Source of the DNA: Tumebacillus sp. BK434
Lineage (GTDB): Bacteria > Bacillota > Bacilli > Tumebacillales > Tumebacillaceae
Assembly (NCBI RefSeq): GCF_004340785.1
Contig: NZ_SLXS01000004.1
Coordinates: forward strand, 186,001 to 250,000
Direction of reading: 5' to 3'
DNA: 64,000 nucleotides
Shown: positions 1,741-53,068 of the stretch, piece after piece
Numbering within the stretch: position 1 is the first letter of the stretch
Layout: the number at the start of each line of letters is the position of its first letter
Position numbers and translations under genes: made by a program
The notes under the pieces: generated by a model
What the model saw: the letters and a program-made list of their open reading frames with translations, nothing else
Databases searched by the model: none
Told to the model about the DNA's origin: nothing

Positions 1741-8930
<7,190 letters not shown>

Positions 8931-21324: not shown

Positions 21325-21515
21325 CAAGGTGGGGTAGAGGTTGCGGTGCTGATCAGTACGCGGCGGGAGGTGCAAGGACACCTGTGAACGCCCTGGAAAG
21401 GCAGCATTGCCGAAGTTTGCGGCCGTCTTTGCGGTCAGCAGGCTGGGGCCGGGCTCGAACAGGGCCGGAACTGTCACGGGAATGCTGCCAACTTCCCGTG
21501 GAGAGCTATTTCCAA
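21325..21515 (+). promoter_or_regulatory. lysine riboswitch (L-box)
   Basis: The leader contains the conserved L-box blocks in order: GTAGAGGTTGCGGTGC, TGATCAGTA, GGGAGGTGCAAGGACACC, TTGCCGAAG, GGCTGGGGCC, CTGTCACGGGAATGCTGCC and GGAGAGCTAT. A P1 helix can form between GGGGTAG and CTATTTC with wobble pairs. A terminator follows at 21547. The gene controlled encodes an amino-acid permease, as expected for lysine-repressed uptake or exchange. Confidence 0.93.
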
Positions 21516-21546
21516 CAAAGGCGATAGGTGCGGGTCATGGAAACAT

Positions 21547-32634: not shown

Positions 32635-32733
32635 CTCTTATCTGCCAAAGCGTATTGCTTTGCTGGAATTAGCACCTGTACACGGTTGCCGAGGCTTCGC
32701 AGGGCCAGTTCCCTCCGCCTCTCTGGATAAGAG
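32635..32733 (-). promoter_or_regulatory. SAM-I riboswitch (S-box)
   Basis: On the - strand the conserved S-box blocks run in order: CTTATCCAGAGAGGCGGAGG, ACTGGCCCTGCGAAGCCTC, GGCAACC, GTGCTAATTCCAGCA and GGCAGATAAGAG. The P1 helix is CTCTTATC/GATAAGAG. It sits upstream of a terminator and metH, a classic S-box target. Confidence 0.96.
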
Positions 32734-40240: not shown

Positions 40241-40276
40241 AAAAGGGACTCCGTCTACACGCGGAGTCCCTTTTTC
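40241..40276. terminator. bidirectional terminator selD / CPBP gene
   Basis: AAAAGGGACTCCG/CGGAGTCCCTTTTT hairpin. The stop of the - strand CPBP gene lies in the loop. Confidence 0.85.
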
Positions 40277-41691
40277 TTGTAGGCAAATACAAGCAGGGGC
40301 AACAACAGCCACAACAAGCCCCGGTAATCCCCATACATCCCGCCCATGGTAACGCTCGCCAGAAAGCTGTCGTACAGAAAATGTCCGGTGATGACCGCAC
40401 CAAGCCCATAGCGCCGGTAGAGCCAGAAGAAGAGCGGCCCGATCACCAAGCCCAGCTCGAGAATGCGGTAATACCATGGGGAGACATCGTACGACAGATG
40501 GGTGAGCGACCAGAGCAGGGAAGAGGCTAAGGCCGCGACGAGCGCCGGCTGCAGCCAGCGGCCGAACAACCGGCGGAAGATCAGCTCTTCGCTCAAGGCC
40601 GCCATGACGGCAGCGACCCCGGTCAGCAGCAAGGGCCAGGGGGACAGCGCCAGCGTCTCCTGCTGCTGCAGGTCGGACGCCCAAAACCCAAATGCCGAAG
40701 CCAGCCAGCTCAGCAGCGTGCTGACGCCTGCCAATATGCCGAACACGCCGTACCCTGCCGTGACCTGCCTGTGGAGCCAATCCGGATCTTTGACCCGCTG
40801 GAGCAGCGTCGGGCCGGACGGTGCCGTGATTACAAAGAGGCTGAACAGGATGCCCGCATAGGCAACGCCTTTGAGCAGACCGGCCAGCGACGGTTCGATC
40901 AGCCAGCAGAGGGCCGGCATGCTCGCGCTCACCAGCGCCTCGCCCGTGAGCCGCCGTCCGCCCAAGCCCCGTTTCCAAACGGTATAAAAGGCGCTGACGA
41001 CAATCCCGATGATCACGAGCAGAAACAGCAAGCCGGAAGCAAACAGCGCGATCTTTTTTACCACGGAAGCTTCGGCGGTCTCTAGGTCTTTCGCCTCAGA
41101 CGCTGCCACCACTTCCAAGCGATGCTCAAACGCACCCCATCGATCGCCCGCCAGCTCGGCAAGAAACATTTCGCGGAGGCCTTCGTATTGATAACCAGTC
41201 TCAAAGCTTAGCAATAGATGCTCCGCACCCGTATTATTAATGGAAGAAACAGATAGCGTTTGCACGCCAAACCGTTTCATCAGCGCTTGGCGCACCTGTT
41301 CAACCTGCTCGTCTTGCGAACCGGGGAATAGTGCCAAAGTCATACCCCGAATCCCTTCCACACGGCCGTTCTGGCGATTGACCAGCACCTCTGCCGCTCC
41401 CGATTTCACCTTCCACATCACCAGCGGTTTGTTCGCATCGTCAGCCTCTTGACGAAAGGCATCGGTCATCTTGCGCTCCTGCAGATGACGAGACACAGCT
41501 GCAGATTCTAACTGCTCCACCGTCAACTCGCCGTCGCCCAGCCACGCAGCGGCCGTCGCTTTGGCCTGCTCGGGGGTGACCGTCAGCGGCAACGGCGTGT
41601 GCTGCATGCCATGCACCCACAAGAGCTCGCCGATCAGCAGAGCCAATCCGAACAGCCCGAGCAGCAGCAAACCCCGCATTTTTCGCACCAT
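40255..41691 (-). CDS. CPBP family membrane metalloprotease
   Basis: This 478-residue protein begins with a membrane helix, followed by an extracytoplasmic domain of ~200 residues (TPEQAKATAAAWL onward). The C-terminal half is multi-spanning. The CAAX-protease/bacteriocin-processing signature is present: EELIFRR (Glu368, Glu369, Arg373), a later His in SLTHLSYD, and HFLYDS. Family members act in prenyl-protein processing, bacteriocin immunity or signalling. The substrate here is unknown. ATG at 41691 has GAGGAGGAG in front. The large N-terminal extension is unusual for a plain CPBP protein. Confidence 0.85.
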   Translation of the reverse strand: MVRKMRGLLLLGLFGLALLIGELLWVHGMQHTPLPLTVTPEQAKATAAAWLGDGELTVEQLESAAVSRHLQERKMTDAFRQEADDANKPLVMWKVKSGAAEVLVNRQNGRVEGIRGMTLALFPGSQDEQVEQVRQALMKRFGVQTLSVSSINNTGAEHLLLSFETGYQYEGLREMFLAELAGDRWGAFEHRLEVVAASEAKDLETAEASVVKKIALFASGLLFLLVIIGIVVSAFYTVWKRGLGGRRLTGEALVSASMPALCWLIEPSLAGLLKGVAYAGILFSLFVITAPSGPTLLQRVKDPDWLHRQVTAGYGVFGILAGVSTLLSWLASAFGFWASDLQQQETLALSPWPLLLTGVAAVMAALSEELIFRRLFGRWLQPALVAALASSLLWSLTHLSYDVSPWYYRILELGLVIGPLFFWLYRRYGLGAVITGHFLYDSFLASVTMGGMYGDYRGLLWLLLPLLVFAYKKKGLRV

Positions 41692-41748: not shown

Positions 41749-41777
41749 TTGACATGCCAGATGTTTGCCAATATAAT
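41749..41777 (+). promoter_or_regulatory. perfect consensus sigma-A promoter
   Basis: TTGACA, a 17-base spacer and TATAAT match the sigma-A consensus at every position. Transcription would start at about 41785. No protein gene begins within the next 400 bases, and a terminator stands 60 bases downstream. Confidence 0.85.
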
Positions 41778-41784
41778 ATTCGTT

Positions 41785-41860
41785 GCTATGAACCATACAT
41801 AGTCCATGAGGAAATTCCTCATCCTTTAAAAAAGCGATGATCGAGCATCATCGTTTTTTT
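41785..41860 (+). ncRNA. candidate small structured RNA (~75 nt)
   Basis: From the start predicted by the perfect promoter, the transcript would hold three stem-loops. The first is CTATG/CATAG (41786-41802). The second is ATGAGGA/TCCTCAT (41806-41822). The third is an intrinsic terminator, CGATGAT/ATCATCG (41835-41853), followed by seven T. There is no meaningful open frame (Met-Asn-His-Thr-stop only). It is either a free small RNA or an attenuated leader of codY, whose start is 330 bases further on. I do not recognise it as a known RNA family. Confidence 0.55.
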
Positions 41861-42189
41861 CATGGATTTTTTACGAAAAACGACATTGCAAAATGTTTCA
41901 ATCCTTGATATATTTAATCAGGATTCGAGAATTATCAGAATTGTTCCCGGTTACTTTACTCTCTTTCCTCAGTCGGTGGGAGAACATGTATGATCTTTCT
42001 CAAATTGGGCAATGTTGAAGAATGAGGGCTGAATTGTTACAGTTCTATGATATTTTCGTAGTTTTCCGGTTGTATGCTTGAAAATGCGCATCATTTCGAC
42101 TACTGTATAGTTGTTGCGCAGTTAAGAATCAATCAAAATCACAAAGTGTAAGCGAAATAACTAAGAAAAAATAGATAGCAGGTGAACCC
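41861..42189. other. AT-rich gap before codY
   Basis: This 329-base stretch is much richer in A+T than its surroundings and has no credible gene. It holds an imperfect inverted repeat (AATCCTTGAT ... ATCAGGATT, 41900-41926) and a sequence at 41930-41944 that matches the CodY box AATTTTCWGAAAATT at 11 of 15 positions. A codY promoter must lie here if the upstream terminator is efficient, but I see no strong one. Confidence 0.5.
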
Positions 42190-42969
42190 ATGGTTTTGTT
42201 GGAAAAAATACAACGCTTTAACCGTCTGCTGCAAAAATCGGCTGCAAACGGCGTCGACTTCATGGAGCTGGCGAAACTGCTCAGTGACATGGTAGACTCT
42301 AACGTCTACGTGGTTTCGAAAACGGGTAAGATTTTGGGCTTTGGCCTCGCCGAGTACGAGCTGACTTTGGAATGGAATCAGATCATGACCGTCGATCAGC
42401 GCTTCCCGGGCAACTTTAACGAGTCGCTGATCAAGATCACCGAAACGCAGAAGAACATCGAGAACAAAGAGCCGTTCTACGTGTTCTCCGCAGAAGAGAA
42501 CGAAGTGTTCAAGAAGAAGAACCTGACGATCGTTCCGATCGTCGGCGGCGGCACGCGCCTCGGCACCTTGGTGCTGGCGCGCCTGAACAACAAGTTCACC
42601 GATGAAGATCTCATCCTCTCCGAATACGGCGCAACTGTGGTTGGCATGGAGATCATCCGTGCCGAGCAGGAAGAAATTCATGAAAAAGCCCGCCAGCGCG
42701 CGATGGTGATGATGGCGCTCGAATCCCTGTCCTTCTCGGAACAGGAAGCGATCCAGCACATCTTTAAAGAGCTGGAAGGCTCCGAAGGTCTGCTCGTCGC
42801 CTCGAAGATCGCAGACCGCGTCGGCATCACCCGCTCGGTCATCGTCAACGCGATCCGCAAGCTGGAATCGGCCGGCGTCATCGAATCCCGCTCGCTGGGT
42901 ATGAAAGGCACGTACATCAAGGTGCTCAACCCGCTGTTCCTTGAGCAGCTCGAAGCGCTCGACAAGTAA
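42190..42969 (+). CDS. codY: GTP- and branched-chain-amino-acid-sensing global repressor CodY
   Basis: This 259-residue protein is the normal length for CodY. It has the N-terminal GAF-like effector domain (LSDMVDSNVYVVSKTGKILG) and a C-terminal winged helix with the conserved recognition segment IADRVGITRSVIVNAIRKLESAGVIESR. CodY represses stationary-phase, amino-acid and often secondary-metabolite genes when GTP and branched-chain amino acids are abundant. Here it is not in the usual codV-clpQ-clpY-codY operon. It stands alone behind a long AT-rich leader. The SD GCAGGTG is moderate. Confidence 0.97.
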   Translation: MVLLEKIQRFNRLLQKSAANGVDFMELAKLLSDMVDSNVYVVSKTGKILGFGLAEYELTLEWNQIMTVDQRFPGNFNESLIKITETQKNIENKEPFYVFSAEENEVFKKKNLTIVPIVGGGTRLGTLVLARLNNKFTDEDLILSEYGATVVGMEIIRAEQEEIHEKARQRAMVMMALESLSFSEQEAIQHIFKELEGSEGLLVASKIADRVGITRSVIVNAIRKLESAGVIESRSLGMKGTYIKVLNPLFLEQLEALDK

Positions 42970-52847: not shown

Positions 52848-53068
52848 AGAAGAATTGAAGTTGTTCATCCAAAGAACCCTCCAATGTTGGTGATTGTCTT
52901 TCGTTTTGATCCAACATTACCTACAAGGGATGCACGAGAGTCGCTGATGGGTGTGCGAGCCGCCGACATCATGTCGAGGCGGATTACCGATATCAGAACT
53001 GGCAACCCACCTGCGCGAGCGGGTTCAAAACAATGGTAACACGGCTGCGAGGGGTTCTTTGACTTCAT
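52848..53068 (+). ncRNA. ssrS: 6S RNA
   Basis: This non-coding stretch after aspS folds as a long rod. The closing stem pairs GAAGT and AAAGAACCCT (52857-52880) with AGGGGTTCTTT and ACTTC (53050-53066). Inside are an AATGTTGG/CCAACATT helix and a CCGCCGACA hairpin around a large central bubble. A promoter precedes it and a terminator follows. 6S RNA binds sigma-A RNA polymerase in stationary phase. Its place after aspS matches that of B. subtilis bsrA, as I recall. Confidence 0.85.

Follow-up and report, generated by a model that had tools for sequence, protein, structure and literature searches.

A conserved three-hairpin RNA unit upstream of codY in Tumebacillus and its relatives is probably a new small RNA

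Results

An exact sigma-A consensus promoter precedes a short terminated unit upstream of codY

We analysed a 64,000-nt stretch of the Tumebacillus sp. BK434 genome (contig NZ_SLXS01000004.1, positions 186,001 to 250,000; hereafter the window, with coordinates counted from its first letter), for which an initial annotation had proposed a strong promoter and a structured RNA of about 75 nt ahead of codY. The locus comprises the following features:

40255 to 41691, minus strand: divergent CPBP/Rce1-like membrane protease gene (PF02517; start codon picked by its ribosome-binding site)
41749 to 41777, plus strand: P1, sigma-A promoter TTGACA-17-TATAAT of the predicted RNA (motif match and conservation)
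41785 to 41860, plus strand: predicted small RNA of 76 nt (folds and models R1 and R2; start placed 8 nt past the -10 by inference)
41785 to 41803, plus strand: hairpin 1, GCUAUG-7 nt-CAUAGU, at the RNA 5' end (arms invariant in 7/7 family genomes, loop of 5 or 7 nt)
41806 to 41822, plus strand: hairpin 2, a 7-bp stem whose arms covary and whose loop varies (alignment and consensus fold)
41828 to 41860, plus strand: hairpin 3, the intrinsic terminator and its seven-T run (terminator-like on the minus strand too)
41861 to 41865, plus strand: CATGG directly 3' of the T-run (identical in 7/7 family genomes)
41886 to 41914, plus strand: P2, probable own promoter of codY, TTGCAA-17-TATATT (TG before the -10 in the window genome)
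41930 to 41945, plus strand: CodY-like box AATTATCAGAATTGTT, just 3' of P2 (all 16 nt identical in 7/7 family genomes)
42190 to 42969, plus strand: codY (PF06018 and PF08222), the downstream neighbour

The initial annotation had described P1 as an exact sigma-A consensus and the only one of its kind in the window, and a motif scan allowing spacers of 16-18 nt bore this out: the match on the plus strand at 41749-41777 is the sole TTGACA-N-TATAAT, and 0 of 100 shuffles gave one. Across the 4,645,837-base genome the exact TTGACA-N17-TATAAT form occurs five times, as compared with zero for the reversed control. The other four copies precede apparent protein ORFs, which by eye we take to encode a Fur-like regulator, a short lanthipeptide-like product, an FAD-oxidase-like protein and a DUF177-like protein, and P1 is thus alone among the five in preceding a short terminated unit devoid of an ORF. 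Of these four, the exact-consensus promoter at locus L165 (G000, contig C2, near position 346783) is followed by an ORF of 41 codons that ends in a Thr/Cys-rich stretch and, by eye, resembles a lanthipeptide precursor.

Folding of positions 41784-41862 (79 nt) yields three hairpins at -25.3 kcal/mol with a z-score of -6.0, a value that none of 200 shuffles reached, and the pre-terminator part of this RNA, taken alone, also folds more stably than its shuffles (z -4.1; 0 of 300 as low). The three stem-loops and seven-T terminator of the initial annotation are therefore recovered, and its estimate of RNA length agrees with the 76 nt that separate the predicted start at 41785 from the end of the T-run at 41860. 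A linker of five nt lies between hairpin 2 and the terminator, whose stem contains 14 pairs of which just three are G-C, while hairpin 1 is weak, at -3.7 to -4.7 kcal/mol in the individual folds of seven orthologues. The RNA contains three AUGs, two of which start ORFs of 4 and 7 codons and the third of which opens a frame that exits beyond the terminator, in keeping with the earlier statement that the unit holds no useful ORF.

The unit is conserved in seven genomes of the family

We next consider a family sample of seven genomes from two genera, the first represented by G000, G001 and G002 and the second by G003, G004, G005 and G006. Each of the seven contains one clear copy of the RNA (one match each at E 0.01), situated between the divergent CPBP-like gene and codY, and all seven keep P1, the three-hairpin layout and the terminator. 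Conservation of the stems and promoter in relatives, whose absence had been named beforehand as one of two results that would refute the proposal, is thus found throughout the family sample. The same seven genomes share a neighbourhood of approximately 10 kb in the order selA-selD-CPBP-like(-)-RNA-codY-amidase(-)-hemZ-murJ, with the match to the CPBP-like protein being partial in the second genus (102 to 175 residues). With conservation extending over the entire neighbourhood, the proximity of the RNA to codY says little about a functional connection between them.

At P1, the -35 TTGACA and the 17-nt spacing are kept in all seven genomes and the -10 reads TATACT in five and TATAAT in two; on alignment A1, inter-genus identity is 100% at the -35 and 89% at the -10, with only 48% in the spacer. 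Within the RNA, identity on the same alignment is 0.84 for hairpin 1, 0.73 for the terminator and 0.45 for the hairpin 2 region, the last being an underestimate because A1 is misaligned there, and no part of the RNA varies less within the family than the two arms of hairpin 1. Further downstream, identity falls to 0.02 in the gap-rich stretch 3' of CATGG and rises to 0.99 in the CodY-like box and 0.88 at the ribosome-binding site of codY, with four pieces of the 5' region before that site ranging from 0.21 to 0.60. The segment from CATGG to P2 differs in length between genomes and consists mainly of gaps in the alignment. Further invariant islands in the codY 5' region are TGTTACA at 42035-42041 and ATAGATAGCAGGTG at 42171-42184.

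The same comparison speaks to the possibility that the locus encodes a tiny peptide or leader peptide beginning at the AUG of either hairpin 1 or hairpin 2, which we regard as very improbable. The AUG within GCUAUGAA is invariant, but its frame runs for 4 codons in G000, G001, G002 and G005 and for 8 different codons in G003, G004 and G006, where the hairpin 1 loop is 2 nt shorter and the reading frame differs as a result. Since just 3 nt precede this AUG in the predicted RNA, a ribosome-binding site for it is implausible, and the AUG of hairpin 2 opens a 7-codon frame in the first genus but one that overruns the RNA in the second.

Base pairing in hairpin 2 is maintained despite sequence change

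When folded singly, each of the seven RNAs adopts the same three-hairpin layout, with z-scores of -4.8 to -7.4 for the whole RNA and -2.5 to -4.1 once the terminator is removed; in G003, G004 and G006 the two-hairpin part only modestly beats its shuffles, 3 to 6 of 300 being as low. These z-score folds used T letters and omitted some loop bonuses, such that G003 is scored at -27.5 versus -29.3 with U. On alignment A5, which was fitted to a model built from three first-genus sequences, 98.4% of 189 cells are paired and RNAalifold returns the same 27 pairs. The initial annotation had suggested a check for conserved pairing in relatives, and this check uncovered two-sided, pair-preserving changes in 7 of the 27 pairs, a number matched by 9 of 500 shuffles. 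They are concentrated in hairpin 2 (5 of 7 pairs), with two among the 14 pairs of hairpin 3 and none in hairpin 1, which yields no covariation evidence because it is invariant in all seven genomes. The covariation score of 16 two-sided cells compares with a shuffle mean of 6.4 (sd 1.7) and was equalled by 0 of 500 shuffles, whereas the count of further pair types on A5 is no higher than in shuffles (494 of 500 as high). Two column pairs of hairpin 2, 29-42 and 31-40, differ as A-U versus G-C between G005 and G003/G004/G006 in a manner independent of the alignment; the inter-genus signal in hairpin 2 can in part be read as whole pairs gained or lost, and the independent events are few because the sample consists of seven genomes from two genera. 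Collectively, the pair-preserving changes and the fact that all seven genomes keep the promoter, the hairpins and the terminator support the existence of a real RNA unit at the level of sequence.

These observations also bear on whether what counts is transcription as such, or the DNA itself, with P1 and its terminator insulating or tuning P2 or the protease promoter, or with hairpin 1 being an operator located where transcription starts. The location of the unit between two promoters (that of the protease being putative) would suit such a role, as would the inverted repeat with invariant arms that hairpin 1 forms in the DNA from +1 to +19. However, the spacing of the half-sites shifts from 7 to 5 nt among genomes, which is better suited to a loop than to an operator, and pairing in hairpin 2 is kept despite sequence change, which nothing at the DNA level would need. 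In addition, short CTATGA...CATAG repeats are not enriched, numbering 30 in the seven family genomes with the RNA locus counted versus 35 for the reversed control. We therefore judge a DNA-level role to be quite unlikely. Since the short pattern is no commoner than its control, we also rejected the idea that hairpin 1 is a signal repeated elsewhere. In a class sample of 398 genomes, made up of the seven family genomes and 391 others (seven of them from the same order), a longer hairpin 1 pattern occurs in 7/7 family genomes and in 2 of the 391 others, with a control count of 5. Of the seven family genomes, three contain a single copy of the palindrome CTATGATTGTCATAG (L147, L151 and L152).

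codY has a probable promoter of its own beyond the terminator

The initial annotation had left a choice between a small RNA and a strongly attenuated leader, and the arrangement of the region 3' of the terminator helps to decide between them. In all seven genomes a probable promoter of the form TTGCAA-17-TATA[GT]T (P2) lies 3' of the terminator and is followed by the CodY-like box. This box matches the CodY consensus at 11 of 15 positions, a score that single-genome shuffles reach in 20 to 34% of cases, and the case for it consequently rests on its invariance. Its placement after P2 suggests that CodY may repress its own gene. No CodY box was found at a constant place near P1 in the seven genomes, where the scores are 12/15 at -53 in G004, 11/15 at -42 in G005 and at most 9 in the others, and we accordingly rejected CodY control of P1. 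A second CodY, 45-48% identical, is present in 7/7 family genomes; the copy at L169 (G000:C1:7500-14500, positions 3765-4529) is 46% identical to the CodY of the window and sits in what is presumably the order xerC-hslV-hslU-codY-flgB-flgC, apparently a Bacillus-type arrangement.

If the unit were an attenuated codY leader, most P1 transcripts would end at 41860, with conditional read-through into codY. The RNA is indeed in tandem with codY in all seven genomes, and the CATGG that follows the T-run is invariant although an ordinary terminator would work without it. Moreover, when the 3' arm of the terminator is removed, the GCGAUG of its 5' arm pairs with upstream sequence at a mean probability of 0.33 in G000, 0.82 in G001 and 0.48 in G002, and in G001 this competing fold is the best fold. 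In the second genus, by contrast, the same pairing has a probability of only 0.01 to 0.05 in all four genomes, which means that there is no switch common to the family and that one is conceivable in the first genus only. In the complete RNA this pairing drops to 0.0 and the terminator wins in 7/7 genomes. The leader reading must further contend with P2 and the invariant box beyond the terminator, with the variable, gap-rich stretch between CATGG and P2, and with the 330 nt that separate the terminator from codY in the window; taken together, we consider it unlikely. Within the window, a UCAUCCUUU-AAA-AAAGCGAUGA hairpin at 41818-41840 can compete with hairpin 2 and the incomplete terminator, and it is predicted in 3/3 genomes of the first genus and not in the second.

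Given the seven-T terminator and the conserved P2 that codY has to itself, the most probable reading is that the locus is a free-standing gene for a regulatory RNA of 76-80 nt that would act in trans, and of the two options in the initial annotation it is the small RNA that is favoured. The comparison of genomes establishes the promoter, the layout, the terminator, the position and the single clear copy in each genome; transcription, the exact ends and action in trans are inferences.

The unit is confined to the family among the genomes searched

At E 0.01, the R2 model matches 30 of the 398 genomes in the class sample, with scores of 90.0 to 97.3 bits in the seven family genomes and of at most 41.8 bits in the other 23. 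The best match outside the family, at 41.8 bits, is an element without the hairpin 1 sequence. Four of the best five non-family matches (G117, G137, G196 and G223, at L130-L133) come from genomes with one genus label, each with a three-hairpin element, and were rejected as members because their stem sequences and gene setting are different; six further sampled genomes with this genus label gave no R2 match at E 0.01. The element in these four genomes, whose shared genus belongs to another family, is terminated and contains a UUGGGUGCCAAACCCA core (positions 1501-1591 of L130-L133). It lies beside what we take to be a transporter-like gene, to which three of the genomes add a UmuC/DinB-like gene, and it may be another small RNA.

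Among the seven non-family genomes of the order, the best scores were 30.8 bits with R2 (G008, E 0.005) and at most 26.9 bits with R1, and inspection by eye of 620 nt upstream of eight codY genes in these genomes revealed no similar unit. In G010, a TTGACATGCC stretch lies approximately 450 nt upstream of codY with the -10 missing from its expected place. Extra sequence-search matches in G009 and G034 cover the terminator only and were set aside. Second matches within the family genomes (E up to 1) do not exceed 31 bits, and several simply read the terminator of this unit on its opposite strand. Such a distribution suggests that the RNA arose, or first became recognisable, at the origin of the family.

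The Rfam search that the initial annotation had proposed returned no known family: with Rfam 15, nothing over the window RNA reached the gathering threshold, the best sub-threshold match having a chance-level E of 0.88, and the other six family loci gave no match over the RNA at E up to 1. Among the entries listed, our literature search of titles and abstracts returned no report of a small RNA ahead of codY or of one in Tumebacillus; one match, a preprint on the S. aureus small RNA Teg16, mentions the codY mRNA once. The RNA is thus probably a new small RNA family, judged from sequence, and one that is ordinary in kind. It would add a small RNA family, absent from the libraries searched, to a part of the Bacilli that seems to have received little study, and its predicted ends, structure and orthologues are now given for direct testing.

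A proposed trans-acting role for the RNA and its constant 5' hairpin

As a free-standing RNA, the unit would operate as follows. Sigma-A RNA polymerase would initiate at P1, approximately 8 nt past the -10, and the 5' end of the transcript would fold immediately into hairpin 1, with hairpin 2 and the terminator forming next. Hairpin 3 would then terminate transcription and the short RNA would be released ahead of P2, the probable promoter of codY itself. Action in trans would proceed through the 5'-terminal element, the arms of which are the constant part of the family, whereas hairpin 2 would serve as a structural spacer. Because hairpin 1 is weak and has invariant arms with a variable loop, it fits either opening to pair or being read as a helix. 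Within the free-standing reading, the likeliest single mode, though short of even odds, is that hairpin 1 opens to pair with mRNAs; that it is instead a protein-binding site is possible but somewhat more tentative, and modes other than these two make up the rest.

No conserved unpaired stretch that would be an obvious seed was found in the seven RNAs, the invariant arms of hairpin 1 being paired. Predicted duplexes between the RNA and the codY 5' region are inconsistent, scoring approximately 3.5 sd better than shuffles in G002, 0.8 in G000 and 1.5 in G005 and being no better in the other four genomes, a negative result for the codY 5' region as a target. The 9-mer complement of the 5' arm occurs at 10 sites in G000 and 9 in G003, with no homologous place in common except the RNA locus. 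A more speculative proposal, to which we give little credence, is that this family-specific RNA helps to run a two-CodY network, either by tuning one CodY or by carrying a nutrient signal to targets outside CodY control, with the 5' hairpin being read by a dedicated protein. If the RNA does act on or with CodY, an RNA layer would be added to a central nutrient regulator.

RoxS/RsaE, FsrA and SR1 are short intergenic trans-acting small RNAs of Bacillota with their own promoter and an intrinsic terminator, and the RNA described here resembles them in size class, sigma-A promoter, hairpins, intrinsic terminator and conservation only among relatives. What sets it apart from all three is that constancy resides in a 5' hairpin, where the bases are paired, and not in an open seed. 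Unpaired C-rich motifs are a feature of RoxS/RsaE, whereas no CCC occurs at unpaired positions in the seven folds, and the Rfam searches gave no match at threshold. With terminator-type leaders such as riboswitches, T-boxes and attenuators, the unit shares a promoter, a structured RNA and a terminator placed ahead of a same-strand gene, and a competing fold that is possible in one genus; it departs from them in that codY has a probable promoter of its own past the terminator, in the absence of the competing fold from the second genus, and in the lack of any Rfam leader family at threshold over the RNA. 6S RNA, which forms one long hairpin with a central bubble, is likewise free-standing and non-coding, but its model spans 187 positions as compared with the 76 nt and three hairpins found here. 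Elsewhere in the window, Rfam places a 6S RNA at 52873-53059 on the plus strand (59.3 bits), together with a Lysine riboswitch at 21327-21516 (plus strand) and a SAM riboswitch at 32635-32733 (minus strand).
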